DNA from: Prostheceraeus crozeri
Lineage: Eukaryota > Platyhelminthes > Polycladida > Euryleptidae
NCBI GenBank assembly: GCA_907163375.1
Contig: CAJQUW010005784.1
Location: 186,001 to 250,000 of the forward strand
Direction of reading: 5' to 3'
Length of the DNA stretch: 64,000 nt
A program made the translations under genes and the position numbers. The notes beneath the pieces were generated by a model. That model did not search any database, was not told the DNA's origin, and saw nothing but the letters and a program-made list of their open reading frames with translations. Shown here in pieces: positions 6,246-37,863 of this stretch. Numbering within the stretch: the stretch's first letter is position 1; the number at the start of each line of letters is the position of its first letter.

Positions 6246-6560
6246 AGTAGTAAGTAAATCTACACCACTGGACCGCACAAGATGGCCGCCGTCCACCGAC
6301 CTCCCCCCTCCTGTCAGACTTAGGGCGTCGGCCCTAGTCCGCCACCGGGTTCCTTCGAGTCCGACTCCCCCCCTTTGGACCGACGGCGTAGCGAGAGGTT
6401 GTTCGTGGTGCGCTCTCCAGGTTGGCGTGGTGTGCCGGCCAGGTTGGCGTGGTGTGCCGCCCAGGTTGGCGTGGTGTGCCGGCCAGGTTGGAAGGGTGGA
6501 ATTTTGGTGCGAGACCCCTCCCATCGTGTTTCTCGTCAAAAGTTGGGTTAACAAAATTTT

Positions 6561-7420
6561 TCCACCTCCCCCCCCTCGGCAGCGATATTCTAATTTTGGT
6601 TCTAGTGGATGGATTTTGTCTTATAGATACTCATTTGAAAGAGGAGAAAACACTGCTCAATGACATTTTTGTTGCGAGTCAATCGGATCAGCCGTTCAAA
6701 TGTTAGAGCTGTTACAAGATTTCACGTCGGACCTCACCTGAAAAAATCCTAAGTGTCTGAGTGACTTTGTATGAGAAAAATTTTTTTTCCAAAGTGTCGA
6801 ACTTCGACCTGGGACCCTGACCAAAGTTTGTTTCATCAAATTTCACCGACCCCCCCTCGGCAGCGATCTTCTAATTTTGGTTCTAGTGGATGGATTTTGT
6901 CTTGCAGATACTCATTTGAAAGAGGAGAAAACACTGCTCAGTGACATTTTTGTTGCGAGTCAATCGGATCAGCCGTTCAAATGTTAGAGCTGTTACAAGA
7001 TTTCACGTCGGACCTCAGATTTGACGAAAAAATCCTAAGTGTCAGAGTGACTTTGTATGAGAAAAATTTTTTTCCAAAGTGTCGAATTTCGACCTGGGAC
7101 CCTGACCAAAGTTTGTTTCATCAAATTTCACCGACCCCCCCCCTCGGCAGCGATATTCTAATTTTGGTTCTAGTGGATGGATTTTGTCTTATAGATACTC
7201 ATTTGAAAGAGGAGAAAAAACTGCTCAGTGACATTGTTGTTGCGAGTCAATCGGATCAGCCGTTCAAAAGTTAGAGCTGTTACAAGATTTCACGTCGGAC
7301 TTCACCTGAAAAAATCCTAAGTGTCAGACTGACTTTGTATGGGAAAAATTTTTTCAAAGTGTCGAACTTCGACCTGGGACCCTGACCAAAGTTTGTTTCA
7401 TCAAATTTCTCCGAACGGTA
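6561..7420. repeat. Three ~285-bp tandem repeats near PalE left end
   Basis: Units start at the 'CTCGGCAGCGAT' positions near 6575, 6856 and 7142. Each ends in a stretch about a 'GACCTGGGACCCTGACC' block before a C-run. Some units keep short open frames but substitutions and length changes break them, so this looks like terminal structural sequence rather than a gene. The mirror set on the right has about two full units. Confidence 0.8.
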
Positions 7421-7718
7421 GGGGGGAGGGGGGTCAGTGAAAAGTGATGAAAAATGTTTTGGTAAGGGTCCCAGATTGAAATTCGGAAGTTTTAAATTTT
7501 TCAAAATTTTCACCACACTGGAGCTCCCACACTTAGGAATTTTTTCACTTGTGGCATGTTACATGGCCATGTGCTGACGGACCGACTTCCCGTGGTCATA
7601 TGAGAATGGTTTAGGTGTCATATGATAGAGAATGATGAGACGAATCGTTTGCAACAAACCGCATGTCGCTACGATGAATACTTTCGGAGATAGAGCCATT
7701 TTAAGTTTTATTCCGAGC

Positions 7719-7727
7719 ATATATAAA
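7719..7727 (+). promoter_or_regulatory. TATA box of the PalE coiled-coil gene (left arm)
   Basis: 'CATATATAAACCCC' lies about 45 bp before a GT donor in 'GACGAGGTAAGC'. It gives a compact Pol II promoter and a short non-coding first exon. The mirror copy is near 23925-23933 on the minus strand. Confidence 0.6.
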
Positions 7728-7770
7728 CCCCCGACAACGTAAGTCTGATCACTTCATCGAAAGACGAGGT

Positions 7771-8331
7771 AAGCGACGGTCGTCGCTCTGAGCTCCCGAT
7801 ATCGGGTGTTTCAAAGGACTCTATCTTTTGAAGTAGGCAAGCTATCTTCTTACTTCAAAGTTTGTGTGATAGAGTTTGATTATGTCTTTACTACTGATAA
7901 AATTTTTTAAAAGTAGTATGAGTAGTAAAATGCGGAATTTTTTTAAAATTCTTAATTTTCAGTTTTTTCAAAGTTTTAACATGTAGTCTAAAGTTTTTAA
8001 GTATGCTACATTCAAATCTGCTATCAGATTTGAAATTTAACTAAGTCTAAGGCAGCTTTGAGGGGTTAGATCCCAGCTACTGATCACTACCTTTGACTCG
8101 GCGTTGCTGTTACCACTTCGGGGCAGTGACAATGATGTCTTAAGCTGTAAATAGCGGGTATCGGGGAAGATATCTCACTTCCCTAGTGATCAGTACAAGG
8201 CCTTCGGGCTGTCAACGGGATCGAGTGCCACTCACTACACTCAAATCTATAATTCGTCACTAAGTGTAATGCTTTAGGAATATGACTGTACTACATGATT
8301 CCAAACTTATACAAATTTCATTATCTTACAG
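7771..8331 (+). other. 5'UTR intron of the PalE coiled-coil gene
   Basis: The donor is GAG|GTAAGC and the acceptor TTATCTTACAG|TTAGCC, six bases before the start codon at 8338. The intron holds a GC-richer, possibly structured segment (8070-8215). The same signals occur inverted in the right arm (23319 to ~23879). Confidence 0.6.
8078..8210 (+). ncRNA. Candidate structured RNA segment inside the 5'UTR intron
   Basis: TACTGATCACTA (8078-8089) is the exact complement of TAGTGATCAGTA (8184-8195), closing a ~95-nt domain. Inside is GGGAAG...CTTCCC, and just outside is GGCC-TTCG-GGCT, a UUCG-capped stem. The segment is preserved in the other arm. No known RNA family was recognised, and it could be only a splicing or regulatory fold. 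Confidence 0.35.
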
Positions 8332-8337
8332 TTAGCC

Positions 8338-9492
8338 ATGGCAAATGATAAGAATCGCAAATTCCATATGAAAATGTATACATGTGGGCGAATCAATCGC
8401 AGTGCGGACGCCAAGGCGCATGTTAAGAAGGCGGGCACTGACCACATGATCATCCTGAGTAGGGTTGCGTGTGTGAAGTGTGGGGTGTTGAAGGGAGTTG
8501 AGGATGAGGTGAAGTTTTACCGAGTGCATGCTGATTGTATTGGAGGTTTGATGAATGACCATCGATTCACCAAGTTGATTGTTGAAGAGAGGGAGCGAAT
8601 GTTGAAGATAGAGCGAGACGCCAAGGTGGAGAATGATGTGGAGAGTGATGAGGTGAAGAAAGCTGTTGCTTCGTTGGAGGCTGAGATTGAGCGAATGAGA
8701 GTGCTTGAGAGTGATGATGAGGATGATGTGGATTTAGATAGGGAGCGTGTGAGGAAGTTGAGCTCTTCTTCCTCGGAGGTGTCCAACATAGTTGTTGAGG
8801 ACCCCCCGCAGAGCTCATCTTCCCCAAAATTGAAGGGTGGTGGGATTTGCATGCAGTCGGCGAGGTGGATGAAGGATGTCGAAACAAAGCATGTGTCGCA
8901 GCAGATGGCACATGATTTGTTAGTAAATAAATATGAAAGTTTGAAGAAGGTTAAAGACGAAGTCGTGAAGGAGTTGGATGAGTTGAAAAAGAAGGATCTG
9001 AAGTCGAAGCAGGTAGCGGATGAGAATATCAAAATGAGGCGTAGTGTGACAGATTTGAAGATGAAGACGCGAGAGTTGGAAGAGAAGAATTATGACTGTG
9101 AGAAGAGGGCGAGTGCTGCAGAGAGAAGAATGAGACATGCAGAAGCGAAGTTCGAGGAGATGATGAAGGAGATGACTGTGTTGAGAGCGAGGAATGTTGA
9201 GTTGGAGAGGAATGTGGCTCGGCGGGGTGATGAGAGACAGGCGTTTGAGAAGTTGGAGCGCATGAGGGATGAGTGGAATCGTTTGAATGAGGATAGGTTG
9301 TTTGAGTTTCACATCCCTATTCGGGATAACCATTTGGACGGCCAGGTCATTGTGAATAAAGACCTTGATGACTCGATCATCTGTTATAACGGGCACCCCC
9401 AAAAGAAATGCCTACACGCCACACTCCGAATGCGTGGGCACTTGACTGCCTTTTCTGTTAGGAAGCGCGCGAGACTGCCCAAGGATGGCTAA
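8338..9492 (+). CDS. PalE coiled-coil protein with Cys-containing N-terminal domain (left arm)
   Basis: This is a 384-residue frame starting six bases after a splice acceptor. Residues ~1-80 are basic, with Cys residues in 'YTCGRI', 'CVKCGVLK' and 'RVHADCIG' that could bind zinc. Residues ~80-160 are acidic and Ser-rich. Residues ~185-330 form a long charged coiled coil. The C-terminus ends in a basic 'SVRKRARLPKDG'. The stop TAA (9490-9492) lies four bases before an intron donor. After splicing, the same frame stays open through the 138-bp module (9583-9720). It is nearly identical to the mirror gene at 22158-23312, with about five residue differences, which suggests selection or recent conversion. 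The family is not recognised; a DNA-binding or scaffold role is speculation. Confidence 0.75.
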   Translation: MANDKNRKFHMKMYTCGRINRSADAKAHVKKAGTDHMIILSRVACVKCGVLKGVEDEVKFYRVHADCIGGLMNDHRFTKLIVEERERMLKIERDAKVENDVESDEVKKAVASLEAEIERMRVLESDDEDDVDLDRERVRKLSSSSSEVSNIVVEDPPQSSSSPKLKGGGICMQSARWMKDVETKHVSQQMAHDLLVNKYESLKKVKDEVVKELDELKKKDLKSKQVADENIKMRRSVTDLKMKTRELEEKNYDCEKRASAAERRMRHAEAKFEEMMKEMTVLRARNVELERNVARRGDERQAFEKLERMRDEWNRLNEDRLFEFHIPIRDNHLDGQVIVNKDLDDSIICYNGHPQKKCLHATLRMRGHLTAFSVRKRARLPKDG

Positions 9493-9496
9493 CTTG

Positions 9497-9556
9497 GTAA
9501 GTGAAAAGCAAATAAGATAGTATATCCTATTCTAATACATATCATTTTCATTGCAG
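9497..9556 (+). other. 60-bp intron after the coiled-coil ORF
   Basis: Donor CTTG|GTAAGTG and acceptor TTTCATTGCAG|ATC. It lies just beyond the TAA stop. It joins the coiled-coil ORF to the first 138-bp module in the same frame, so it would lie in the 3'UTR unless the stop is read through or is a mutation. Confidence 0.6.
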
Positions 9557-9582
9557 ATCTTTTCCCTGCCTTCACCACTCCC

Positions 9583-9720
9583 GAGAACGAACCAACGGCT
9601 CTCATAAGGCCTACCATGGGGCAAGACATGATAGAACCTCCACGTGGTTTGCCCTGGGCAGTCTTCAGACTGGCGAATACTATCATTAAGTTGAATCTGC
9701 TATCAGTCAACTTGAACGTT
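9583..9720 (+). repeat. 138-bp PalE module, left copy 1
   Basis: First of three 138-bp copies in the left arm, running from GAGAACGAACC to AACTTGAACGTT. It contains a short hairpin (CAGTCT-TC-AGACTG) and a longer one (AAGTTGA...TCAACTT). It also holds an open frame including 'MGQDMIEPP' and 'GLPWAVFRLANTIIK'. A TATA box follows at 9738. Confidence 0.85.
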
Positions 9721-9737
9721 GCGTCGCGTTAGAGGGG

Positions 9738-9745
9738 TATATAAT
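9738..9745 (+). promoter_or_regulatory. TATA box upstream of the 130-codon PalE ORF
   Basis: TATATAAT lies 17 bp after the first 138-bp module and 32 bp before the ATG at 9777, implying a very short 5'UTR. The right-arm mirror is slightly changed (TATATAAA-type). Confidence 0.6.
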
Positions 9746-9776
9746 CCACTACCTCTCATTTCATTTCATTTCAATC

Positions 9777-10169
9777 ATGCAGACGCTGAACACTCAAGTC
9801 AGCTCTCCTCGCGGACCGCAGTTAAGACCGCGAAATTTATTTAATGAATTTGCTAGAATAGAGGAGCAAGACAGAGTCCACAACAATCTTGCTCGGATTG
9901 GCAATGCGATGACAGCAAGTGTTGCCAATCCAATGGAATGCGCTACATTCTACCCTCTACTCACATGCCAACTAGCATGGAAGTCGACACTGCTACCATG
10001 GAGAGAGTCAAAGACTCTCTCAGCAGAATCGGTATGGAGTAAGATGGCTGATGACGATCCCCGAGAACGAACCATCGGCCCTGATAAGGGCCACCATGGG
10101 GCAAGACATGATAGAACCTCCTCGCGGTTTGCCCTGGGCAGTCTTCAGACTGGCGAATACTATCATTAA
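9777..10169 (+). CDS. Small PalE protein, unknown; frame runs into the 138-bp module
   Basis: The 130-codon frame starts downstream of a TATA box with 'MQTLNTQVSSP'. The first ~60 residues are helical and charged. After that a second overlapping frame, ending 'VKDSLSRIGME', looks equally protein-like. A frameshift or a missed intron near 9930-9950 is therefore possible. The last ~35 codons of the listed frame cross the second 138-bp module in a different frame from the module's own open frame, so the true C-terminus is uncertain. The mirror copy is at 21482-21874. No family was recognised. Confidence 0.45.
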   Translation: MQTLNTQVSSPRGPQLRPRNLFNEFARIEEQDRVHNNLARIGNAMTASVANPMECATFYPLLTCQLAWKSTLLPWRESKTLSAESVWSKMADDDPRERTIGPDKGHHGARHDRTSSRFALGSLQTGEYYH

Positions 10170-10200
10170 GTTGAATCTGCTATCAGTCAACTTGAACGTT
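10063..10200 (+). repeat. 138-bp PalE module, left copy 2
   Basis: Second copy, same length and boundaries. It follows the 130-codon ORF region and precedes the TATA box at 10266. Confidence 0.85.
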
Positions 10201-10265
10201 GTGCAGTCGATTGCTATCCCTGAAGCATTCTGATTCGCTGTTGAGCAATTCATTGTTGAAAACCC

Positions 10266-10273
10266 TATATAAG
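10266..10273 (+). promoter_or_regulatory. TATA box upstream of the acidic 79-codon ORF
   Basis: TATATAAG lies 66 bp after module copy 2 and 41 bp before the ATG at 10314. The repeated order of module, TATA box and ORF supports a cassette organisation. Confidence 0.6.
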
Positions 10274-10313
10274 CCAGAAGATTGTAGCGCTTCTCATTCA
10301 ATTTTAAGTCACG

Positions 10314-10553
10314 ATGGAGGCAACATCTCCTACCAACACCATTCCCGACTTTATCATCCTCGACGAGTGGGATGAAGAGGATGAGAAGGAGTGTGAGAAG
10401 AAGGGGAAGATCAAGAGGATCGTTTGGACGGATGAGGTGTGGACTCCTAATACCACCCGCATCCGAAAGGTGCCAGATGCACCACCACGGCTTAGGCGGT
10501 ACAGGGTTTATGACAACCTAACTGTCATACCTTTTGACTTTTCAAATCAATAG
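10314..10553 (+). CDS. Small acidic/basic PalE protein, unknown
   Basis: A 79-codon frame with an acidic stretch ('DEWDEEDEKECEKKG') followed by a basic, proline-containing half ('PPRLRRYRVYDNL'). A TATA box is suitably placed and the sequence is kept in the right arm at 21116-21355. It ends at TAG 14 bp before the third 138-bp module, whose own frame is offset. No known family was recognised. The length and charge pattern suit a small regulatory or DNA-packaging protein, but that is a guess. Confidence 0.5.
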   Translation: MEATSPTNTIPDFIILDEWDEEDEKECEKKGKIKRIVWTDEVWTPNTTRIRKVPDAPPRLRRYRVYDNLTVIPFDFSNQ

Positions 10554-10566
10554 TCAACTTGTCGCC

Positions 10567-10704
10567 GAGAACGAACCAACGGCCCTGATAAGGCCTACCA
10601 TGGGGCAAGACATGATAGAACCTCCATGCGGTTTGCCCTGGGCAGTCTTCAGACTGGCGAATACTATCATTAAGTTGAATCTGCTATCAGTCAACTTGAA
10701 CGTT
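10567..10704 (+). repeat. 138-bp PalE module, left copy 3
   Basis: Third copy, again exactly 138 bp with the same boundaries. It follows the 79-codon ORF and precedes a segment from which 314 bp is missing relative to the right arm. Confidence 0.85.
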
Positions 10705-10849
10705 GCAAATGAAGTTCGGTGTAATACTTCCTTTCGACTGGCGTTCCTGTAAAAGGCGGCGGTGAAACCCGTAGCTATCCCAGAATCATGTAAGCTACCT
10801 TAATTTCATTTAACACTATTTCATCTACTATCATCACCCATATGAAGTG

Positions 10850-11535
10850 TTTTTAGATTTACAAGTTAGACTAAGCGTTCTACTATTTGTAAATGAAAGA
10901 TATAGTTTCAACAGTTTACAGATTAAAAATAAAGTTTCAACAGTGTGTACGTTAGAAATAAAGTTTTATCTGCTTGTTTGTTAAAAGAAAGTTTCATCAG
11001 TTAACAAGTTAAAAATAAAGTTTCACCAGTGTACAAGTTAGAAACAAAGTTTCAATAGTGTGTATGTTAGAAATAAGGCTTTATCTGTTTGTATGTTAGA
11101 AACAAAATAAATTTTCACCAGTTTACAGGTTAAAAATGAAGTTTCAATAGTGTGTACGTTAGAGATAAAGTTTTAGCGGTTTGCAAGTTAAAAATAAAGT
11201 TTCGATAGTGTGTACGTTAGAAATAAAGTTTTAGCTGTTTGCAAGATAAAAAATAAAGTTTCACCAGTTTACAAGTTAAAAATAAAGTTTCACCAGTGTA
11301 CAAGTTAGAAACAAAGTTTCAATAGTGTGTATGTTAGAAATAAGGCTTTATCTGTGTGTATGTTAGAAACAAAATGAAGTTTCAACAGTTTACAAGTTAG
11401 AAATAAAGTTTCAATAGTATGTATGTTAGAAATAAAGGTATAACTGTTTGCAAAATAAGATCGCAAGATTTACTAGTTTACAAGTTAGACTAAGTGTAAA
11501 TTAAAAATAAAATTATAACTGTTCACGAGTTAAAG
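10850..11535 (+). repeat. Minisatellite array 1 (left arm)
   Basis: About 30-bp degenerate units built on GTTAGAAATAAAGTTT alternating with CAACAGTGTGTAC or ATCTGTTTGTAT. It is strongly strand-biased and has no long ORF. The mirror array is at ~19840-20500. It separates the coiled-coil gene block from the exonuclease gene block. Confidence 0.85.
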
Positions 11536-11751
11536 CGTTGATGCAACGATGAACAATTAATAAGCTGAAAAGTTTTAGATTCACTTTAACATTACCATAT
11601 GTTTACAGATAGAAATGTATCACAGCAAAGCTACTTCATGAGTTAGTTTGCCAGGAGTGTATCATCTCAAACTTTTACTCCGTCGTTAAAATTTCATGAC
11701 GACTTTCTTGCTAAATGAAAGTTAACACCAGAGGAGCGTAGGGGTGGGTGG

Positions 11752-11758
11752 TATAAAA
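11752..11758 (+). promoter_or_regulatory. TATA box before the 11860 ORF
   Basis: TATAAAA in GGTGGTATAAAATACGC, about 100 bp before the ATG at 11860. The same element is in the right arm at 19597-19603 (complement). Confidence 0.55.
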
Positions 11759-11859
11759 TACGCCTACAGCACTGAGAGAGTTGGAGTGCATGAGCTATGT
11801 ACATTCTTTTGACGACGAGAGGAGCGATTCAGCCGATGGCGTAGGTAGTTTCCCAGAGC

Positions 11860-12105
11860 ATGGAGGACATTGTTTAGGTGACTCTAAGGACGTATGTCGA
11901 GCTGCCCTCAGTGATAGGCTTCCAACTCGTGATGAATGATGATATGCTTACGACCTACATTCAACCATTGGTGTATGCCCACACCCTTCCACACAACGAG
12001 CTTGTCTGCTACATTGTATTCATGAGTGTGGCTCAAAGTAGGAAATTGATTGATGAGACTTTGCTGAAATATCCAAGGCGCGCATTCAAGCATGAATCCC
12101 CGTGA
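11860..12105 (+). pseudogene. Truncated unknown PalE gene (left arm)
   Basis: The ATG at 11860 opens a frame that meets TAG after five codons (11875-11877), then continues in the same frame as a protein-like stretch with 'MNDDMLTTYIQPLVYAH'. The right-arm copy (19151-19495) runs about 40 residues further. Here a 658-bp deletion fuses the gene to the interior of the next one at about 12094. No family was recognised. Confidence 0.5.
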
Positions 12106-12554
12106 GTCCGTACATTCGCCACCAACTTGACATTATTGAAGAGTACGTGACATTAAATATGGACATTCCTACTCCTCTTACTCAAGAGTGGAAGGCGAGA
12201 GATGAAAAGGATACTCCCTATAGAAAGATTTGGGATGGCAATCAAATTTGTCTGCCATTATCACATTGATGTAGTTATTATAAAAAGGATGGAGATCAAT
12301 CAATACCCATCAGATGTGATGAGCTCGGAGAAGATACTTGTGATATCACATTCAAAGTGAATGGGCTATATTATGGTCAGCACAAGCATAACAAAATAGC
12401 CTCTCTCTCGATACACACTGAATCCATCCTATATATTCCAAAGCCACCCAGCGTAGATGACATTATTGACGATATCCTTAACGGGGGTGGTACGAAGCGC
12501 AAGTCGGACAAGAATGCTACCTCCAAACGCAAGTCAAAGAAAGAGAATTGCTAA
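12096..12554 (+). pseudogene. 5'-deleted copy of the unknown PalE gene (right-arm 18145-18914)
   Basis: Promoter, first exon and N-terminal codons are lost to the 658-bp deletion. The remaining frame runs to an in-frame TGA after 'ICLPLSH' (12268-12270), then continues in the same frame through 'FKVNGLYYGQHKHNKIASL' to a Lys-rich tail ending 'KRKSKKENC'. The TGA is also in the right arm. The family is unknown. Confidence 0.5.
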
Positions 12555-12588
12555 TCCTTTCCTAACTCTACCCTATGACAATTCGCTT

Positions 12589-12714
12589 ATGTGCTTTGAG
12601 TGTCGTGGACGTGGTCTTATTAGATACATTTTACTTCTTCGTTGCCATCATATCATTTGTGTATTTTGTCGTGAAAAACATCGATGTAATTCTTCATTTT
12701 GTGATATGTTATAG
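12589..12714 (+). CDS. Short RING-like Cys/His protein (left arm)
   Basis: The frame from ATG 12589 contains 'CFEC', then 'LRCHHIICVFC', then 'HRCNSSFC'. The Cys/His spacing resembles a RING finger except that the last pair is C-x4-C rather than C-x2-C. Only about 41 residues are visible from this ATG. The open frame extends further upstream, overlapping the preceding gene's Lys-rich end, so an upstream spliced exon is possible. If real, it would bind zinc and might act in ubiquitin transfer; that is inference. The mirror copy is at 17984-18109. Confidence 0.45.
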   Translation: MCFECRGRGLIRYILLLRCHHIICVFCREKHRCNSSFCDML

Positions 12715-12765
12715 AACGTTTCCTTAGATGTGTAATTTCCGTTTTAGGCTTCTATCATCATTTTT

Positions 12766-13296
12766 ATGGATTGTGAGGGTGAACCTGTACAGGAGCTCAG
12801 TGCTATTGCTATGAACAATTGGACATATCAGATTGTTAGTGTCTATCATCAACATGCCAACTGTGATCCCAATGTTGATCAATGGGCGAGAAAACACATT
12901 CATGGACTTAATCTGAAATATTTGCAAGACTATGGCTTTTCTTGTGAGACTGCTCTTCTTATTGACTTTAAACGATGGTTAGCTGCTTTCAATGTTATAC
13001 GCATCTTTTGTAATAATCCTGGTAAGGAGAGGAAAGTATTTCCCAATCTAGTCATTAATGATATTTTGCTCCCACCTTGGGATAGTAGAGTGAATCAACA
13101 CTATCATGAAGTCACGAAACGTTTTAAGGATCTGTGTGTTCCTATTTTGTCTGTTCGTTGTAGTAGCTACGTTCATAACCAATGCTTCTTTCCTCCTTAC
13201 CTCAACACTGCCAAAGTCCTGTATGGTTATCATTGCTCGCTATATGACAGTTACCAGCTGTATCTATTTTATCTGTTTCAAACCATTGATTTGTAA
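12766..13296 (+). CDS. DEDDh-type 3'-5' exonuclease-like protein (left arm)
   Basis: This 176-codon frame fits the DEDDh exonuclease pattern. Exo I is 'FMDCEGEPVQELSA', with Asp and Glu two apart. A central 'HIHGLNLKYL...' helix and an 'IFCNNPGKE' strand fit Exo II. Exo III is 'HCSLYD', matching H-x4-D. Upstream codons 'ASIII' in the same frame follow a possible acceptor (TTTTAG at ~12750), so a short upstream exon may exist. Such enzymes trim nucleic-acid 3' ends. The left copy is open; the right copy is frameshifted. It lies between the RING-like ORF and a minisatellite array. Assignment is by motif only. Confidence 0.55.
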   Translation: MDCEGEPVQELSAIAMNNWTYQIVSVYHQHANCDPNVDQWARKHIHGLNLKYLQDYGFSCETALLIDFKRWLAAFNVIRIFCNNPGKERKVFPNLVINDILLPPWDSRVNQHYHEVTKRFKDLCVPILSVRCSSYVHNQCFFPPYLNTAKVLYGYHCSLYDSYQLYLFYLFQTIDL

Positions 13297-13439
13297 TGCA
13301 TGCTTGCTACAGTTATTCAATAAATGTTATTATGCGAAGAGTTGTTGTTTTCATGCAACGGATGGGTTAGATGAAGGGTGATCATATCTTTTTCAAATGA
13401 CTGTGGAACATTGATTTCTATGATGAAGATTTAAACAGT

Positions 13440-15045
13440 TAGATTCGATGACGAACACGATTTACTAGTTTGCAAGTCAGACTAAGCGTTCTACTATTTG
13501 TAAATGAAATATATAGTTTCAACAGTTTACAGATTAAAAATAAAGTTTCAATAGTGTATGTGTTAGAAATTAAGTTTAAGCTGTTTGTATGTTAGAAATA
13601 AAATAAAGTTTCAAGAGTTTACAAGTTAAAAATAAAGTTTCAACAGTGTGTACGTTAGAAATAGAGTTTTATCTGTTTGTAAAATGAGACTGTAGGATTT
13701 ACTAGTTTGCAAGTTAGACTAAGCGTTCTACTATTTGTAAACGAAAGATATAGTTTCAACAGTTTACAGATTAAACATAAAGTTTCAACAGTGTGTACGT
13801 TAGAAATAAAGTTTTAGTCGTTTGCGCGTTAGAAATAAAATAAAGTTTCAACCATTTACAAGTTCAAAATAAAGTTTCAACAGTGTGTATGTTAGAAATA
13901 GACTTTCATCGGTTTGTAAATTAAGATCATGAGATTTACTAGTTTGCAAGTCAGACTAAGCGTTCTACTATTTGTAAATGAAATATATAGTTTCAACAAA
14001 TTACAGATTAAAAATAAATTTTCAATAGTGTATGTGTTAGAAATTAAGTTTAAGCTGTTTGTATGTTAGAAATAAAATAAAGTTTCAAGAGTTTACAAGT
14101 TAAAAATAAAGTTTCAACAGTGTGTACGTTAGAAATAAAGTTATATCTGTTTGTAAAAATAAGATCGCGGGATTTAATAGTTTGTAAGTTAGACTAAGCG
14201 TTCTACCATTTGTAAATGAAAGATATAGTTTACAGATTAAAAAATAAGGTTTCAATAGTAAGTATGTTAGAAATAAAGTTTAAGCTGACTGTGTGTTAGA
14301 AATAGAATAAAGTTTCAACAGTTTGCAGATTAAAAATAAAGTTTCAAAAGTGTGTACGTTAGAAATAAAATTTTAGCTGTTTGTATGTTAACAATAAAGT
14401 TTCAACAGTGTGTACGTTAGAAAAAGAGTTTTATCTGTTTGTAAAATGAGATTGTAGGATTTACTAGTTTGCAAGTTAGACTAAGCGTTCTACTATTTGT
14501 AAACGAAAGATATAGTTTCAACAGTTTACAGATTAAACATAAAGTTTCAACAGTGTGTACGTTAGAAATAAAGTTTTAGTCGTTTGCGCGTTAGAAATAA
14601 AATAAAGTTTCAACCATTTACAAGTTCAAAATAAAGTTTCAACAGTGTGTATGTTAGAAATAGACTTTCATCGGTTTGTAAATTAAGATCATGAGATTTA
14701 CTAGTTTGCAAGTTATACTAAGCGTTCTACTATTTGTAAATGAAAGATATAGTTTCAAAAGTTTACACATTAAAAATAAAGTTTCAATAGTGTGTACGCT
14801 AGAAATAAAGTTTTATCTGTTTACATGTTAGAAACAAAATGAAGTTTCAACGATGTGTACGTTAGAAATAAAGTTTTATCTGTTTGTATGTTAGAAATAG
14901 AGGTATAACAGTTTATGTGCTAGAAAGAAAGGTATAACTGTTTGTAAAATAAGATCATAAGATTTACTAGTTTGCAAGTTAGACTAAGCGTTCTACTATT
15001 TGTAAATTAAAAATAAAATTATAACTGTTTAGAAGTTAAAGCGTT
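13440..15045 (+). repeat. Minisatellite array 2 (left arm)
   Basis: About 1.6 kb of the same ~30-bp unit family as array 1, with a higher-order block of ~500 bp (starting 'GATTTACTAGTTTGCAAGT') repeated three times. The right-arm mirror is about 300 bp shorter. No coding potential was seen. Confidence 0.85.
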
Positions 15046-17245: not shown

Positions 17246-17402
17246 CGTCATCGAATCTAACTGTTTAAATCTTCATCATAGAAATCAATGTTCCACAGTC
17301 ATTTGAAAAAGATATGATCACCCTTCATCTAACCCATCCGTTGCATGAAAACAACAACTCTTCGCATAATAACATTTATTGAATAACTGTAGCAAGCATG
17401 CA

Positions 17403-17932
17403 TTACAAATCAATGGTTTGAAACAGATAAAATAGATACAGCTGGTAACTGTCATATAGCGAGCAATGATAACCATACAGGACTTTGGCAGTGTTGAGGT
17501 AAGGAGGAAAGAAGCATTGGTTATGAACGTAGCTACTACAACGAACAGACAAAATAGGAACACACAGATCCTTAAAACGTTTCGTGACTTCATGATAGTG
17601 TTGATTCACTCTACTATCCCAAGGTGGGAGCAAAATATCATTAATGACTAGATTGGGAAATACTTTCCTCTCCTTACCAGGATTATTACAAAAGATGCGT
17701 ATAACATTGAAAGCAGCTAACCATCGTTTAAAGTCAATAAGAAGAGCAGTCTCACAAGAAAACCATAGTCTTGCAAATATTTCAGATTAAGTCCATGAAT
17801 GTGTTTTCTCGCCCATTGATCAACATTGGGATCACAGTTGGCATGTTGATGATAGACACTAACAATCTGATATGTCCAATTGTTCATAGCAATAGCACTG
17901 AGCTCCTGTACAGGTTCACCCTCACAATCCAT
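17403..17932 (-). pseudogene. DEDDh exonuclease-like gene, frameshifted (right arm)
   Basis: Mirror of 12766-13296. It starts with the same 'MDCEGEPVQELSA' Exo I motif. A one-base deletion after 'YLQDYGF' (near 17765) shifts the frame. The downstream segment with H-x4-D remains readable at 17403-17633. The arms have therefore decayed independently after duplication. Confidence 0.6.
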
Positions 17933-17983
17933 AAAAATGATGATAGAAGCCTAAAACGGAAATTACACATCTAAGGAAACGTT

Positions 17984-18109
17984 CTATAACATATCACAAA
18001 ATGAAGAATTACATCGATGTTTTTCACGACAAAATACACAAATGATATGATGGCAACGAAGAAGTAAAATGTATCTAATAAGACCACGTCCACGACACTC
18101 AAAGCACAT
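17984..18109 (-). CDS. Short RING-like Cys/His protein (right arm)
   Basis: Mirror of 12589-12714, with the same Cys/His pattern and no change in the motif. The same caveats apply: the start is uncertain and the last Cys pair is spaced four apart. Confidence 0.4.
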   Translation of the reverse strand: MCFECRGRGLIRYILLLRCHHIICVFCREKHRCNSSFCDML

Positions 18110-18144
18110 AAGCGAATTGTCATAGGGTAGAGTTAGGAAAGGAT

Positions 18145-18914
18145 TAGCAATTCTCTTTCTTTGACTTGCGTTTGGAGGTAGCATTCTTGTCCGACTTGCG
18201 CTTCGTACCACCCCCGTTAAGGATATCGTCAATAATGTCATCTACGCTGGGTGGCTTTGGAATATATAGGATGGATTCAGTGTGTATCGAGAGAGAGGCT
18301 ATTTTGTTATGCTTGTGCTGACCATAATATAGCCCATTCACTTTGAATGTGATATCACAAGTATCTTCTCCGAGCTCATCACATCTGATGGGTATTGATT
18401 GATCTCCATCCTTTTTATAATAACTACATCAATGTGATAATGGCAGACAAATTTGATTGCCATCCCAAATCTTTCTATAGGGAGTATCCTTTTCATCTCT
18501 CGCCTTCCACTCTTGAGTAAGAGGAGTAGGAATGTCCATATTTAATGTCACGTACTCTTCAATAATGTCAAGTTGGTGGCGAATGTACGGACTCACGGGG
18601 ATGAGTATGTAGTCCCCATACTGATTGCTCAATATCTTCACATCAGTGGAAGGGAGCATTCCCGTTTGCAGTACTACGCTGTGATCCTCATGACGCAAGA
18701 CTTGTTTAAATTTACGTGTAGCGGTGTAGGATTATGTACATTTGTTGTTTCTTCCACTGGTCTCAGCTGTAGATGATCTGATTGTAGCGAACCTTGTAAC
18801 GTCTGGCCACCATTTTGTCCTGTCAGTGTAGTAGATGTAGATGCCTGAAAATAAAAAAGATTCTATCAAGTTTACGTTCAAGGGAGGAGAAGGAGGAAAG
18901 TAGCGACTTACCAT
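18145..18914 (-). pseudogene. Unknown PalE gene with intron after the start codon and in-frame stop (right arm)
   Basis: ATG (18914-18912) is followed directly by a GTAAGT donor. The intron runs 18911-18845 and exon 2 begins with Ala-Ser-Thr codons. A frame change is needed near 18740 to join the exon-2 start to the long frame that begins near 'VLRHEDHSVVLQTG'. That frame meets TGA after 'ICLPLSH', then continues open through 'PSVDDIIDDILNGGG' to a Lys-rich tail. A TATA box (19027-19034) and a CT-rich leader precede it. Strong coding character plus at least one frame change and one stop suggest a decayed gene. A structural or clamp-like role cannot be decided. Confidence 0.5.
18845..18911 (-). 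other. 67-bp intron immediately after the start codon
   Basis: On the minus strand ATG|GTAAGT at the donor and TTTATTTTCAG|GCATC at the acceptor. Splicing places the start codon directly on the second exon. It is deleted in the left arm. Confidence 0.6.
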
Positions 18915-19026
18915 TTTAGTTGGATAATATAACAGGGATGTAGAGAGAGAGAGAGAGAGAGAGAAAATGTGCGTCCGTCACTTGTACGATTCAACGATGG
19001 AATGATTCTCACTGTGGAAGGCTCTC

Positions 19027-19034
19027 TATTTATA
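19027..19034 (-). promoter_or_regulatory. TATA box of the 18914 gene
   Basis: TATAAATA on the minus strand, about 115 bp before the ATG. Downstream the leader contains a CT dinucleotide run (complement of the GA run at 18942-18963). Confidence 0.55.
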
Positions 19035-19150
19035 AAGGAATGCTTGATTCTCATTAGACAACAATCCTCATTGGAGAATAGCATCAAGTGTATTCCCACT
19101 CTCACCGATGCTTCATTCGCCCGCTAGCGCTCATCGTCTCCTTTCACCCT

Positions 19151-19495
19151 CTAGACTAAAGCTCTATTGTATTCTTCCGTTGATAGGTGTGGTAAAACAC
19201 GGGTGGGCAAATGATGTGTGTCGTCGCGCCATTGATAATAATACTCCAACAGTAGGCGACCATGCTTGAATGCGCGCCTTGGATATTTCAGCAAAGTCTC
19301 ATCAATCAATTTCCTACTTTGAGCCACACTCATGAATACAATGTAGCAGACAAGCTCGTTGTGTGGAAGGGTGTGGGCATACACCAATGGTTGAATGTAG
19401 GTCGTAAGCATATCATCATTCATCACGAGTTGGAAGCCTATCACTGAGGGCAGCTCGACATACGTCCTTAGAGTCACCTAAACAATGTCCTCCAT
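19151..19495 (-). pseudogene. Unknown PalE gene with in-frame TAG at codon 6 (right arm)
   Basis: ATG at 19495, then TAG at 19480-19478, then a 108-codon open frame with 'TLRTYVELPSVIGFQ' and 'PRRAFKHGRLLLEYYYQW'. The same TAG is in the left arm. Either a nonsense mutation predates arm divergence, or initiation or readthrough is unusual. A TATA box lies at 19597-19603. No family was recognised. Confidence 0.5.
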
Positions 19496-19839
19496 GCTCT
19501 GGGAAACTACCTACGCCATCGGCTGAATCGCTCCTCTCGTCGTCAAAAGAATGTACATAGCTCATGCACTCCAACTCTCTCAGTGCTGTAGGCGTATTTT
19601 ATACCACCCACCCCTACGCTCCTCTGGTGTTAACTTTCATTTAGCAAGAAAGTCGTCATGAAATTTTAACGACGGAGTAAAAGTTTGAGATGATACACTC
19701 CTGGCAAACTAACTCATGAAGTAGCTTTGCTGTGATACATTTCTATCTGTAAACATATGGTAATGTTAAAGTGAATCTAAAACTTTTCAGCTTATTAATT
19801 GTTCATCGTTGCATCAACGCTTTAACTCGTGAACAGTTA

Positions 19840-20500
19840 TAATTTTATTTTTAATTTACACTTAGTCTAACTTGTAAACTAGTAAATCTTGCGATCTTAT
19901 TTTGCAAACAGTTATACCTTTATTTCTAACATACATACTATTGAAACTTTATTTCTAACTTGTAAACTGTTGAAACTTCATTTTGTTTCTAACATACACA
20001 CAGATAAAGCCTTATTTCTAACATACACACTATTGAAACTTTGTTTCTAACTTGTACACTGGTGAAACTTTATTTTTAACTTGTAAACTGGTGAAACTTT
20101 ATTTTTTATCTTGCAAACAGCTAAAACTTTATTTCTAACGTACACACTATCGAAACTTTATTTTTAACTTGCAAACCGCTAAAACTTTATCTCTAACGTA
20201 CACACTATTGAAACTTCATTTTTAACCTGTAAACTGGTGAAAATTTATTTTGTTTCTAACATACAAACAGATAAAGCCTTATTTCTAACATACACACTAT
20301 TGAAACTTTGTTTCTAACTTGTACACTGGTGAAACTTTATTTTTAACTTGTTAACTGATGAAACTTTCTTTTAACAAACAAGCAGATAAAACTTTATTTC
20401 TAACATACACACTGTTGAAACTTTATTTTTAATCTGTAAACTGTTGAAACTATATCTTTCATTTACAAATAGTAGAACGCTTAGTCTAACTTGTAAATCT
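19840..20500 (-). repeat. Minisatellite array 1 (right arm)
   Basis: Inverted counterpart of 10850-11535, same ~30-bp unit family. Confidence 0.85.
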
Positions 20501-20576
20501 TAAAACACTTCATATGGGTGATGATGGTAGCTGAAATAGTGTTAAATAAAATTAAGATAGCTTACATGATTCTGGG

Positions 20577-20895
20577 ATAGCAATCGACTGCGATTCATGT
20601 GTAAAGAGCTTGTTAGACTACGGAAGAGAGAAGTGTGTCATGTTGCGTATGGCGCGTGAATGTCCTCCCATTTCATTCCATTTATCAATTCGTCTCATTG
20701 ATAGAGACAGGTTGAACTCATGGTTCTCATAACGTATGCAATGGAAAGTTTATAAGGCAAACTTCGACAGTTGGCTAAATGTCACCCTGGCGCGAATGCA
20801 TACTACGTTGAGACAGAGGCAATCACTTGCAAACATGACGCAGAGAGGTTTAACAACATTGACCATTGCCGAATGTCCCTTGCGGTATACATAGC
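20577..20895 (-). other. Right-arm segment absent from the left arm
   Basis: 314 bp flanked by the 5-bp direct repeat ATAGC (20577-20581, 20891-20895). The left arm has one copy and lacks the intervening DNA, as expected for microhomology-mediated deletion. It contains a minus-strand CTTATAAA box (20749-20756) and short downstream frames broken by stops, so it probably held the promoter of a small gene. Confidence 0.7.
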
Positions 20896-20964
20896 CACGG
20901 GTTTCACCGCCGCCCTTTACAGGAACGCCAGTCGAAAGGAAGTATTACACCGAACTTCATTTGC

Positions 20965-21102
20965 AACGTTCAAGTTGATTGATAGCAGATTCAACTTAAT
21001 GATAGTATTCGCCAGTCTGAAGACTGCCCAGGGCAAACCGCGTGGAGGCTCTATCATGTCTTGCCCCATGGTAGCCCTTATCAGGGCCGTTGGTTCGTTC
21101 TC
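20965..21102 (-). repeat. 138-bp PalE module, right copy 3
   Basis: Mirror of 10567-10704, identical length. Confidence 0.85.
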
Positions 21103-21115
21103 GGCGACAAGTTGA

Positions 21116-21355
21116 CTATTGATTTGAAAAGTCAAAAGGTATGACAGTTAGGTTGTCATAAACCCTGTACCGCCTAAGCCGTGGTGGTGCATCTGGCACC
21201 TTTCGGATGCGGGTGGTATTAGGAGTCCACACCTCATCCGTCCAAACGATCCTCTTGATCTTCCCCTTCTTCTCACACTCCTTCTCATCCTCTTCATCCC
21301 ACTCGTCGAGGATGATGAAGTCGGGAATGGTGTTGGTAGGAGATGTTGCTTCCAT
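21116..21355 (-). CDS. Small acidic/basic PalE protein (right arm)
   Basis: Mirror of 10314-10553, with the predicted 79-residue protein unchanged. Complete conservation between arms, while nearby repeats differ, is consistent with either constraint or gene conversion. The function is unknown. Confidence 0.5.
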   Translation of the reverse strand: MEATSPTNTIPDFIILDEWDEEDEKECEKKGKIKRIVWTDEVWTPNTTRIRKVPDAPPRLRRYRVYDNLTVIPFDFSNQ

Positions 21356-21450
21356 CGTGACTTAAAATTGAATGAGAAGCGCTACAATCTTCTGGCTTAT
21401 ATAGGGTTTTCAACGAATCAGAATGCTTCAGGGATAGCAATCGACTGCAC

Positions 21451-21588
21451 AACGTTCAAGTTGACTGATAGCAGATTCAACTTAATGATAGTATTCGCCA
21501 GTCTGAAGACTGCCCAGGGCAAACCGCGAGGAGGTTCTATCATGTCTTGCCCCATGGTGGCCCTTATCAGGGCCGATGGTTCGTTCTC
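21451..21588 (-). repeat. 138-bp PalE module, right copy 2
   Basis: Mirror of 10063-10200, same length. Confidence 0.85.
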
Positions 21589-21874
21589 GGGGATCGTCAT
21601 CAGCCATCTTACTCCATACCGATTCTGCTGAGAGAGTCTTTGACTCTCTCCATGGTAGCAGTGTCGACTTCCATGCTAGTTGGCATGTGAGTAGAGGGTG
21701 GAATGTAGCGCATTCCATTGGATTGGCAACACTTGCTGTCATCGCATTGCCAATCCGAGCAAGATTGTTGTGGACTCTGTCTTGCTCCTCTATTCTAGCA
21801 AATTCATTAAATAAATTTCGCGGTCTTAACTGCGGTCCGCGAGGAGAGCTGACTTGAGTGTTCGGCGTCTGCAT
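21482..21874 (-). CDS. Small PalE protein, unknown (right arm)
   Basis: Mirror of 9777-10169 with two residue changes (Leu to Pro near residue 3, Tyr to His near residue 60). The same uncertainty applies to the C-terminal half, where a second overlapping frame also looks protein-like. Confidence 0.45.
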   Translation of the reverse strand: MQTPNTQVSSPRGPQLRPRNLFNEFARIEEQDRVHNNLARIGNAMTASVANPMECATFHPLLTCQLAWKSTLLPWRESKTLSAESVWSKMADDDPRERTIGPDKGHHGARHDRTSSRFALGSLQTGEYYH

Positions 21875-21930
21875 GATTGAAATGAAATGAAATGAGAGGT
21901 AGTGGTTTATATACCCCTCTAACGCGACGC

Positions 21931-22068
21931 AACGTTCAAGTTGACTGATAGCAGATTCAACTTAATGATAGTATTCGCCAGTCTGAAGACTGCCCAGGGC
22001 AAACCGCGTGGAGGTGCCATCATGTCTTGCCCCTTGGTGGCCCTTATGAGAGCCGTTGGTTCGTTCTC
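21931..22068 (-). repeat. 138-bp PalE module, right copy 1
   Basis: Mirror of 9583-9720. It differs by several substitutions, including loss of the 'CCATGGTAGG' core. Confidence 0.85.
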
Positions 22069-22157
22069 GGGAGTGGTGAAGGCAGGGAAAAGATCTGCAA
22101 TGAAAATGATATGTATTAGAATAGGATATACTATTTATTTGCTTTTCACTTACCAAG

Positions 22158-23312
22158 TTAGCCATCCTTGGGCAGTCTCGCGCGCTTCCTAACAGAAAAG
22201 GCAGTCAAGCGCCCACGCATTCGGAGTGTGGCGTGTAGGCATTTCTTTTGGGGGTGCCCGTTATAACAGATGATCGAGTCATCAAGGTCTTTATTCACAA
22301 TGACCTGGCCGTCCAAATGATTATCCCGAATAGGGATGTGAAACTCAAACAACCTATCCTCATTCAAACGATTCCACTCATCTCTCATGCGCTCCAACTT
22401 CTCAAACGCCTGTCTCTCATCACCCCGCCGAGCCACATTCCTCTCCAACTCAACATTCCTCGCTCTCAACACAGTCATCTCCTTCATCATCTCCTCGAAC
22501 TTCGCTTCTGCATGTCTCATTCTTCTCTCTGCAGCACTCGCCCTCTTCTCACAGTCATAATTCTTCTCTTCCAACTCTCGCGTCTTCATCTTCAAATCTG
22601 TCACACTACGCCTCATTCTGATATTCTCATCCGCTACCTGCTTCGACTTCAGATCCTTCTTTTTCAACTCATCCAACTCCTTCACGACTTCGTCTTTAAC
22701 CTTCTTCAAACTTTCATATTTATTTACTAACAAATCATGTGCCATCTGCTGCGACACATGCTTTGTTTCGACATCCTTCATCCACCTCGCCGACTGCATG
22801 CAAATCCCACCACCCTTCAATTTTGGGGAAGATGAGCTCTGCGGGGGGTCCTCAACAACTATGTTGGACACCTCCGAGGAAGAAGAGCTCAACTTCCTCA
22901 CACGCTCCCTATCTAAATCCACATCATCCTCATCATCACTCTCAAGCACTCTCTTTCGCTCAATCTCAGCCTCCAACGAAGCAACAGCTTTCTTCACCTC
23001 ATCACTCTCCACATCATTCTCCACCTTGGCGTCTCGCTCTATCTTCAACATTCGCTCCCTCTCTTCAACAATCAACTTGGTGAATCGATGGTCATTCACC
23101 AAACCTCCAATACAATCAGCATGCACTCGGTAAAACTTCACCTCATCCTCAACTCCCTTCAACACCCTACACTTCACACACGCAACCCTACTCAGGATGA
23201 TCATGTGGTCAGTGCCCGCCTTCTTAACATGCGCCTTGGCGTCCGCACTGCGATTGATTCGCCCACATGTATACATTTTCATATGGAATTTGCGATTCTT
23301 ATCATTTGCCAT
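22158..23312 (-). CDS. PalE coiled-coil protein (right arm)
   Basis: Mirror of 8338-9492: 384 codons with about five replacements (for example Gly to Arg in 'CVKCGV', Met to Val, Met to Lys, Lys to Arg, His to Arg). No frameshift or internal stop is present. Two full-length open copies, beside genes that carry stops, make this the best-preserved gene of PalE. The 5'UTR intron and the intron after the stop are also preserved. Confidence 0.7.
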   Translation of the reverse strand: MANDKNRKFHMKMYTCGRINRSADAKAHVKKAGTDHMIILSRVACVKCRVLKGVEDEVKFYRVHADCIGGLVNDHRFTKLIVEERERMLKIERDAKVENDVESDEVKKAVASLEAEIERKRVLESDDEDDVDLDRERVRKLSSSSSEVSNIVVEDPPQSSSSPKLKGGGICMQSARWMKDVETKHVSQQMAHDLLVNKYESLKKVKDEVVKELDELKKKDLKSKQVADENIRMRRSVTDLKMKTRELEEKNYDCEKRASAAERRMRHAEAKFEEMMKEMTVLRARNVELERNVARRGDERQAFEKLERMRDEWNRLNEDRLFEFHIPIRDNHLDGQVIVNKDLDDSIICYNGHPQKKCLHATLRMRGRLTAFSVRKRARLPKDG

Positions 23313-24185
23313 GGCTAACTGTAAGATAATGAAATTTGTATAAGTTTGGAATCATGTAGTACAGTCATATTCCTAAAGCATTACACTTAGTGACGAATTA
23401 TAGATTTGAGTGTAGTGAGTGGCACTCGATCCCGTTGACAGCCCGAAGGCCTTGTACTGATCACTAGGGAAGTGAGATATCTTCCCCGATACCCGCTATT
23501 TACAGCTTAAGACATCATTGTCACTGCCCCGAAGTGGTAACAGCAACGCCGAGTCAAAGGTAGTGATCAGTAGCTGGGATCTAACCCCTCAAAGCTGCCT
23601 TAGACTTAGTTAAATTTCAAATCTGATAGCAGATTTGAACTCAGCATACTTGAAAACCTTAGTCTACATGTTAAAACTTTGAAAAAACTGAAAATTAAGA
23701 ATTTTTAAAAAATTCCGCATTTTACTACTCATACTACTTTTAAAAAATTTTATCAGTAGTAAAGACATAATCAAACTCTATCACACAAACTTTGAAGTAA
23801 GAAGATAGCTTGCCTACTTCAAAAGATAGAGTCCTTTGAAACACCCGATATCGGGAGCTCAGAGCGACGACCGTCGCTTACCTCGTCTTTCGATGAAGTG
23901 ATCAGACTTACGTTGTCGGGGGTTTATATATGCTCGGAATAAAACTTAAAATGGCTCTATCTCCGAAAGTATTCATCGTAGCGACATGCGGTTTGTTGCA
24001 AACGATTCGTCTCATCATTCTCTATCATATGACACCTGAACCATTCTCATATGACCACGGGAAGTTGGTCCGTCAGCACATGTCCATGTAACATGCCACA
24101 AGTGAAAAAATTCCTAAGTGTGAGAGCTCCAGTGTGGTGAAAATTTTGAAAAATTTAAAACTTCCGAATTTCGACCTGGGACCTT

Positions 24186-24800
24186 CACCAAAACATTTTT
24201 CATCAAATTTCACTGACCTCCCCCCCTCGTTCGGAGAAATTTGATGAAACAAACTTTGGTCAGGGTCCCAGGTCGAAGTTCGACACTTTGAAAAAATTTT
24301 TTCCCATACAAAGTCACTCTGACACTTAGGATTTTTTCAGGTAAGGTCCGACGTGAAATCTTGTAACAGCTCTAACTTTTGAACGGCCGATCCGATTGAC
24401 TCGCAACAACAATGTCACTGAGCAGTTTTTTCTCCTCTTTCAAATGAGTATCTGCAAGACAAAATCCATCCACTAGAACCAAAATTAGAAGATCGCTGCC
24501 GAGGGGGGGTCGGTGAAATTTGATGAAACAAACTTTGGTCAGGGTCCCAGGTCGAAATTCGACACTTTGGAAAAAAAATTTTCCCATACAAAGTCACTCT
24601 GACATTTAGGATTTTTTCGTCAAATCTGAGGTCCGACGTGAAATCTTGTAACAGCTCTAACATTTGAACGGCTGATCCGATTGACTCGCAACAAAAATGT
24701 CATTGAGCAGTTTTTTGTCCTCTTTGAAATGAGTATCTATAAGACAAAATCCATCCACTTAGAACCAAAATTAGAAGATCGCTGCCGAGGGGGGGGTCGG
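24186..24800. repeat. ~285-bp tandem repeats near PalE right end
   Basis: Inverted counterpart of 6561-7420. 'ATCGCTGCCGAG' recurs at about 24493 and 24780, giving one fewer unit than the left end. The copy-number difference shows the two ends change independently. Confidence 0.75.
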
Positions 24801-25072
24801 AAAAATTTTGGTAACCCAACTTTTGACGAGAAACACGATGGGAGGGGTCTCGCACCGAAATTCCACCCTTCCAACCTGGCCGGCACACCACGCCAACCTG
24901 GAGAGCGAACCACGAACAACCTCTCGCTACGCCGTCGGTCCAGAGGGGGGGAGTCGCACTCGAAGCAACCCGGTGGCGGACTAGGGCCGACGCCCTAGTC
25001 TGACAGGAGGGTGGGAGGTCGGTCGACGGCGGCCATCTTGCGCGGTCCAGTGGTGTAGATTTACTTACTACT

Positions 25073-37794: not shown

Positions 37795-37863
37795 GTTTTT
37801 CAGTAAAGTGTTTTTGCTGTGTATCAATGATACCACAAAATTCAAATATTATCTTATAAAATA

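Follow-up and report, generated by a model that had tools for sequence, protein, structure and literature searches.

PalE, an 18.8-kb palindrome with Polinton-type ends, as a probable member of a non-autonomous Polinton-derived family in a flatworm genome

Which kind of element is bounded by the ends of a Polinton and yet consists almost entirely of a single inverted repeat? The question is raised by a stretch of 64,000 nucleotides from the polyclad Prostheceraeus crozeri (contig CAJQUW010005784.1, positions 186,001 to 250,000; this whole stretch is called the window), in which an earlier note had described such an element, here called PalE. We conclude that PalE probably belongs to a family of palindromic, non-autonomous elements that derives from Polintons, occurs in many copies and is moved by helper Polintons, and that the symmetric centre of its members has been revised by deletion. 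The element and its flanking hexamers are located as follows.

6246..25072, no strand: PalE, the whole palindromic element (identical tips and inverted arms)
6240..6245, plus strand: left target-site hexamer TGTGTT (direct reading)
25073..25078, plus strand: right target-site hexamer TGGGTT (direct reading)

PalE has a length of 18.8 kb and Polinton-type termini (AGTAGTAAG...). The terminal sequence AGTAGTAAGTAAATC is found at 6246 on the plus strand and at 25072 on the minus strand, so that both tips carry it, as the earlier note had said, and the ends are of the (AGT)n type with terminal inverted repeats (TIRs). Both hexamers of the proposed 6-bp target-site duplication (TSD) are present, but they agree at only five of six positions, for which the chance is about 0.5% by simple arithmetic. 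That nearly the whole element is one inverted repeat is borne out by self-BLAST, which gives inverted matches across almost its entire length (6838-10778 with 24808-20891, 97.7%; 10774-12094 with 20581-19261, 99.5%; 12096-14749 with 18602-15942, 94.2%). The left arm has 9167 bp and the right arm 9527 bp. A central spacer exists as described, but its unpaired part measures 133 bp (15413-15545) rather than 138 bp.

The two arms have diverged unevenly. In the outer part (6246-11245) there are 76 substitutions in 4646 aligned bases, but only a single one in 2499 aligned bases at 11246-13745 (Fisher 2e-13), while the tandem arrays between 13746 and the centre show 2-12% mismatch per 500-bp block. 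There are also one-sided gaps of 283, 314 and 657 bp. Because the arms differ by substitutions and one-sided gaps, their symmetry is due neither to chance nor to a single copied read, and as they have diverged and the flanks differ, PalE is not one mis-joined copy. The palindrome is real. The near identity of the inner arms suggests exchange between them or late copying; assembly collapse may have affected this inner stretch.

A search for further copies with the same ends covered a 2.05-Gb assembly of 14165 contigs; the numbers of first-look candidates in this and the following genome searches are not copy counts. The first 202 bases of PalE gave 1587 first-look candidates, the best 40 of which were scored, and 16 of these 40 ends form eight head-to-head pairs 18.8-24.1 kb apart, one of them being PalE. 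For the seven other pairs, about 10 kb on either side were read (14 pieces), which covers all but at most 4.4 kb in the middle. These relatives of 19-24 kb are not palindromes: their inverted similarity is limited to TIRs of about 0.55-0.65 kb and to repeat units of about 280 bp, apart from a single 187-bp match in C6185. This agrees with the expectation that Polinton TIRs have hundreds of bases, and they are longer when the 280-bp units are counted. The first 200 bp of the relatives' own TIR pairs are 96.5-100% identical, and the identities of the full TIR pairs are lowered by shifted 280-bp repeats. By eye, five of the seven have a perfect 6-bp TSD (GATGGA, CACAGT, GAGTCT, ACTTTC, GCTGCA), and that of C6185 agrees at five of six positions. 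At C5707 (L013/L014) the host flanks are inverted copies of each other over at least 99 bp, so that no TSD is readable, and both ends are mutated alike (AGCAGT).

These paired relatives are full Polintons. Pfam matches above the cut-offs were obtained for an rve integrase with chromodomain, endonuclease VII and TATA-binding protein, and matches below the cut-offs for DNA polymerase B and a Ulp1-like protease (protease E 0.001). A 428-amino-acid (aa) protein (L019:7794-9077) is the candidate capsid protein; its model, with a predicted local distance difference test score (pLDDT) of 88, matches the double-jelly-roll capsid proteins of PBCV-1, Sputnik and mavirus. Public contigs yield 711 homologues of it at E 0.001, and one of the 120 matches listed is 98% identical; free or environmental forms may exist. 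The TATA-binding-protein homologue (PF00352, E 1e-18) lies at L011:9016-9732 on the minus strand. With tblastn it is matched in all seven fetched sets, as are polymerase (pPolB), protease and capsid protein, and the integrase is matched in six; some matches are partial, such as 51 residues of the capsid protein in C11196. The integrase query gave 2168 first-look candidates, with the best 40 scored at 98-100%.

None of the eight proteins of the relatives that were tested with tblastn, among them integrase, pPolB, capsid protein, protease and TATA-binding protein, has a match inside 6246-25072. Their only matches in the window are those of integrase and pPolB to other Polintons at 40.8-43.1, 50.7-51.8 and 57.6-58.5 kb. 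Since these core genes were tested and not found, PalE is not an autonomous Polinton. It has the terminal sequence of a full family in the same genome, lacks the core genes and belongs to a type present at several loci, as a non-autonomous derivative should. A full Polinton sharing the terminal 1 kb, for which the earlier note had proposed to look, exists, and the sharing extends over much of the terminal 4.6 kb.

In the full elements, the A end carries a gene for a 384-aa protein and the B end a gene for a putative DEDDh-type exonuclease; the A end of C5707 (L013) lacks the part with the 384-aa gene. Both tips of PalE are A-type ends. Read from the tip inward, each arm consists of 4.6 kb of A end, repeats with a 29-bp unit, a private segment U, a piece of the B end in inverted orientation and without the B TIR, further repeats and a private central stretch.

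6246..10778, plus strand: A-end segment of the left arm (TIR, 384-aa gene, tail), shared with full Polintons
20451..25072, minus strand: A-end segment of the right arm, 94.3% to L017 over 4.68 kb
10896..11458, plus strand: tandem array R1 (29-bp unit) of the left arm, by tandem-repeat reading
19905..20455, minus strand: tandem array R1 (29-bp unit) of the right arm, by tandem-repeat reading
11450..12095, plus strand: private segment U of the left arm, without match in the 14 full-Polinton pieces
19261..19905, minus strand: private segment U of the right arm, mirror of the left U
12096..13412, plus strand: inverted B-end segment of the left arm, 92.8-93.6% to the B ends of the seven full relatives
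17287..19102, minus strand: inverted B-end segment of the right arm, 91-92% to the full relatives' B ends
13459..15015, plus strand: tandem array R2 (29/237-bp) of the left arm, by tandem-repeat reading
16011..17240, minus strand: tandem array R2 (29/237-bp) of the right arm, by tandem-repeat reading
15413..15545, no strand: unpaired centre, the right-arm side of the symmetric core, with a putative dyad at 15414/15415

The left A-end segment is 81-97% identical, in pieces, to the A ends of the seven full relatives (L017, 94.5% over 3.99 kb). The left B-end segment lacks 657 bp that the right arm has, and the left arm has no mirror of the unpaired centre (about 131 bp). The 14 fetched pieces of the seven full elements contain neither U nor the centre nor the repeat arrays of PalE, except for a single match resembling the 29-bp unit in each of L011 and L021, never arrayed. 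A 115-bp match links the start of the PalE array to the A-end tail of full elements. A simple TIR expansion of one Polinton is rejected, as the arm holds an inverted B-end piece and private sequence.

Two genes, both common to full Polintons, are retained in the arms.

8338..9492, plus strand: gene for the 384-aa protein, left arm, open (open reading frame, ORF; coiled coil by eye)
22158..23312, minus strand: gene for the 384-aa protein, right arm, open (ORF)
12766..13296, plus strand: DEDDh 3'-5' exonuclease-like gene (176 aa), left arm, open (homologues, motifs, fold)
17406..17950, minus strand: exonuclease-like gene, right arm, frameshifted

Database searches at E 0.01 gave only two homologues of the 384-aa protein, which appears from its sequence to be a coiled-coil protein. 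The ratio of non-synonymous to synonymous substitution rates (dN/dS) is 0.32 against the L009 copy, and 0.44 (left arm) and 0.35 (right arm) against the first 220 codons of the L017 copy. For the exonuclease-like protein there are 31 homologues, with conserved D-x-E and H-x4-D motifs, and dN/dS is 0.18-0.38 against the copies of four full elements. Its model has a pLDDT of 93 and resembles most closely the folds of an arenavirus exonuclease, exonuclease X and ERI nucleases (E 0.004-0.07, none below 0.001); the DEDDh assignment is our reading of the motifs and is probable rather than certain. A further B-end gene (173 aa) is shortened in the left arm, and the right arm has no listed ORF of 100 aa for it. 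In C7310, a second palindrome treated below, both exonuclease copies are open over 176 codons and each 384-aa copy has one stop, while the 384-aa copy of C3145 has two. No PalE ORF has a Pfam match above the cut-off, and a PDB sequence search, Rfam and a tRNA scan gave nothing useful. IMG/VR scans with the 384-aa protein, an exonuclease alignment and the integrase found no relatives, in a collection from which records of the source genome may be excluded. The suggestion that PalE is a satellite element with its own genes describes part of the situation, but the two genes are shared with full Polintons.

The composite arm is not confined to this locus. The end query left 24 unpaired ends, of which 20 were sampled (1.5 kb at 4.4-5.9 kb inward; one piece 791 bp), and the PalE-specific junction was found in three of them. 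C7310:80155-96783 is a second complete palindrome with the plan of PalE and a TSD of CTTAAG that agrees at all six positions; its arm is 99.7% identical to the mirror over 80710-84213 and 99.8% over 84555-86055, with 93-95% in the tips and arrays. At C4236:233162-247030 the left arm and the centre are present, and on the right the centre is joined straight to A-end sequence; the duplication is TTAACG/TTAACC (five of six), and the left tip has a one-base change. C3145 has only part of one PalE-type arm. The earlier note had suggested a search for other copies with the ends of PalE, and such copies were found both as full relatives and as a palindrome.

With U as query, 1124 first-look candidates were obtained, and all 40 that were scored match at 97-100%. 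Of these, 22 form 11 inverted pairs 6.1-12.9 kb apart, ten besides that of PalE, and 14 are single, including C7310, the partner not being among those scored. Four U copies in mixed orientation are crowded into about 15 kb at C368:9883-25279, where the palindrome is complex or amplified. The U query yields 26 U-bearing loci, and with C4236 and C3145 there are at least 28. All eight fetched loci other than PalE itself are flanked as in PalE, with the tandem repeat or A-tail on one side and inverted B-end sequence (B') on the other. As the junction and U occur at many other loci, a one-off rearrangement is rejected. In a tree of a 752-bp B' stretch, the copies of PalE, C7310 and C4236 cluster together (support 0.999), separately from the seven full elements, and the arms group by element. 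In the A-end tree (from which the left C4236 copy was excluded, its match being too short) PalE-type copies are intermixed with full elements, and for this reason the A ends appear to exchange.

The centres of these copies share one edge. The sequence ...TTGACAAACGCG occurs in PalE, C7310 and C4236, where it is joined to three different partners. A 201-base centre query gave 984 first-look candidates; the best 40 were scored, and 34 of the first 40 match only from query position 33-37, which is this edge. We read 20 edge-type copies at the centre and found their junctions to be distinct in 19 of 20 cases, with L074 and L083 sharing one. When PalE, C7310, C4236 and C7555 (L064) are included, 23 of 24 centre junctions that keep the dyad side are distinct. 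Past the edge, the sequence mirrors the incoming arm exactly for 0-10 bases (at least 2 nt in 16 of 20); the longest runs are those of L071 and L081 (9-10 nt, exact) and of L080 (17 nt with one mismatch). In most copies the sequence then continues at a point of the mirrored arm that lies 0.1 to about 5 kb further down, some of these positions being approximate owing to repeats. L082 resumes in unmatched sequence, L087 lacks the CGCG, and the smallest central asymmetry is about 100 bp (L070). In two scored copies, C11461 and C1069, sequence is present on both sides of the dyad. Because the junctions follow the mirror past the edge and then mostly resume down the mirror arm, we take the edge to be most probably the dyad of CTTGACAAACG^CGTTTGTCAAG, in a family that was once symmetric, and a scar left by a central deletion is the best reading of the spacer of PalE. 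If one mismatch at most is allowed, the 22-bp dyad occurs at 594 places in the genome (none for a reversed control); the revised copies L071 and L080 have it, but it is found neither in the window nor in the full-Polinton pieces that were fetched. At L086 (C1957:119968-120137) a PalE-type centre continues in sequence resembling the pPolB region of a full Polinton, and because of this join hybrid molecules must exist.

One fixed edge with variable partners would also be produced by recurrent snap-back. Under this alternative the replicating unit is a half-element that has a single A end and, near ...ACAAACGCG, a free 3' end at a fixed position; during protein-primed replication it primes itself at variable upstream sites, so that each insertion has its own fold-back and its own loop and a perfect palindrome never integrates. 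Loops of about 0.13, 0.42 and 4.8 kb would explain PalE, C7310 and C4236, and snapback genomes of adeno-associated virus (AAV) offer a precedent (excerpts of PMC8235507). We nevertheless regard it as unlikely. The 9-17 nt of mirror past the edge in L071 and L081 (exact) and L080 (one mismatch) are what a symmetric core predicts, C11461 and C1069 have sequence on both dyad sides, and two of the three centres that were not chosen by the edge have lost it. Furthermore, no half-element was found, and the divergence of the B' copies is much older than that of the C7310 arms, which calls for a transmissible form.

It is very improbable that the palindrome arose in the chromosome, by inverted duplication or by the joining of two Polinton ends already inserted, and then spread by segmental duplication: this would fit the composite arms, the four U copies of C368 in mixed orientation and the inverted identical flanks of C5707, but not the perfect TSD at C7310, the near-TSDs at PalE and C4236 with their different host flanks, or the many dispersed inverted pairs. 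Even less credit can be given to an assembly artefact in which an arm was joined to its own reverse complement, since, hard as palindromes are to assemble and although the inner arms of PalE are identical over 2.5 kb but for one base, the arms differ by 76 substitutions and by gaps of 283-657 bp, the centre is unique, the flanks are different and have a near-TSD, and other contigs contain ten inverted pairs, each spaced in its own way.

We therefore return to a helper-moved palindromic family. Two A-type ends, complete or near 6-bp TSDs, the lack of core genes, composite arms at other loci and variable centres meeting a common edge are direct observations; that the edge was the dyad of an ancestrally perfect palindrome is what we infer from them. 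The mobile form would be this perfect palindrome or its hairpin half. Helper pPolB from the abundant full Polintons would replicate it from two identical A origins, and displaced single strands would fold into a hairpin whose open end is a ready double-stranded origin, a second end not being needed. The shared ends and TSDs suggest that helper integrase, supplied in trans, inserts the element. In the chromosome the symmetric centre would be unstable, break at the dyad and be rejoined at a place lower in the other arm; this place mostly differs from copy to copy, and the 133-bp spacer of PalE would be such a scar. PalE works like a satellite or snap-back genome of Polintons. The inverted-duplication genome envisaged in the earlier note also describes part of it, the mirror form, but PalE is neither a single defective genome fixed once nor a plain copy of one Polinton end. 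We lean slightly away from, but take seriously, the stronger proposal of a satellite Polinton lineage whose genome is a perfect palindrome of about 20 kb with a hairpin origin, which takes only polymerase and integrase from its helper, keeps two genes of its own (for a coiled-coil protein and a DEDDh exonuclease) and suffers a centre break at each integration, so that the genome would hold hundreds of natural repair events, each different from the others.

Several points weigh against the palindromic family as we describe it. The TSD of PalE agrees at only five of six positions, as do those of C4236 and C6185. The 20 centres are the best matches of a query with dyad-side sequence, so that one intact side is partly ascertainment; among six centres chosen by U, three are informative (in the others the centre lies outside the piece read), and one of these keeps the dyad side while two have lost 27 and 100 bp. 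Only three of 20 junctions follow the mirror for at least 9 nt, and the 2-5 bases that are usually shared (CGTTT) may belong to the native sequence past the edge. The match of C9962 extends over almost all of the PalE centre (query 3-201), and this copy may have the same junction. None of the 50 dyad places listed out of 594 (contigs C5 to C1385) is on a contig from the end, U, centre or integrase queries, and the 594 places may be unrevised centres or another repeat. Upkeep of the genes is uneven, the 384-aa copies of C4236 having nine stops each and the exonuclease one. Centre revision may precede integration, and no episomal or particle form was seen in this sequence analysis.

Among known systems, vertebrate Mavericks have (AGT)2 ends and 6-bp target duplications (excerpts of PMC8097293). 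PalE resembles Polintons/Mavericks in its ends and in A-end and B-end sequence from such a family in the genome, with flanking hexamers that nearly match; it differs in having no match to integrase, pPolB, protease or capsid protein, in having the same end twice and in being an inverted repeat as a whole. Foldback transposons (FB, Galileo) have very long inverted repeats that are rich in tandem repeats, with little between them, and their ends and target duplication length are unlike those of Polintons. PalE has similarly long, repeat-rich inverted arms, but its ends, near-TSD and sequence are of the Polinton type. Palindromic deletion mutants of adenovirus derive from a protein-primed linear replicon, with a duplicated end and loss of core genes, and PalE, which would replicate in a similar way, is like them in these respects. 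They are not known to be integrated or to form a transmissible lineage. AAV is a parvovirus and is not known to be protein-primed. Its snapback (defective interfering) genomes are self-complementary and derive from one genome end, according to the excerpted PMC8235507. PalE likewise consists of mirror copies of one end around a short unpaired centre (133 bp), but its arm is not a simple colinear copy of a helper end (A end, repeats, U and inverted B end), and, in contrast to AAV, products of the PalE type are chromosomally fixed, occur in many copies and have private sequence.

The fate of palindromic centres can be compared with a 15.4-kb perfect palindrome transgene in the mouse, which, in excerpts of PMC8701086, underwent rearrangement in about 35% of the offspring; of 118 rearrangements studied in cultured cells, 93% were deletions, and a stabilizing effect is described for spacers of 35-52 bp. 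There too, asymmetric deletions break the central symmetry (PMC8701086, same excerpts), but the transgene was an accident of transgenesis while PalE belongs to a natural mobile family. Large perfect palindromes are normally unstable, yet such a palindrome appears to serve here as the genome of a mobile family and to have been carried to many loci. If this is true, a palindromic satellite class is added to the Polinton world, a defective snap-back form can become a heritable lineage in protein-primed replicators, and an unmanipulated genome provides a natural data set of independent repair junctions at palindrome centres. Judging by titles and the openings of abstracts, no palindromic or fold-back Polinton was among the papers listed by our literature searches.

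The window contains further elements. A second, distantly related Polinton lies at 36855-53666, with TIRs of 523 bp (98.5%), ends AGTAGTATAATATAGG and a perfect GTTGTC duplication; it codes for pPolB (40391-44491), an ATPase (39618-40394) and an ORF with a capsid domain (49405-50001). As a parent of PalE it was rejected, its pPolB being 27-29% and its integrase 34% identical to those of PalE's full relatives. An inverted partial copy of a further Polinton at 57126-62755 is 74-91% similar to parts of 47159-52253. The ORFs at 50507-51778 and 57597-58910 have a phospholipase A2-like domain (PF08398) fused to an rve integrase core. Finally, the ORF at 28655-29386 has a weak DUF3504 match, and that at 31802-32794 has an F5/8-type galactose-binding domain and ACA-rich repeats.

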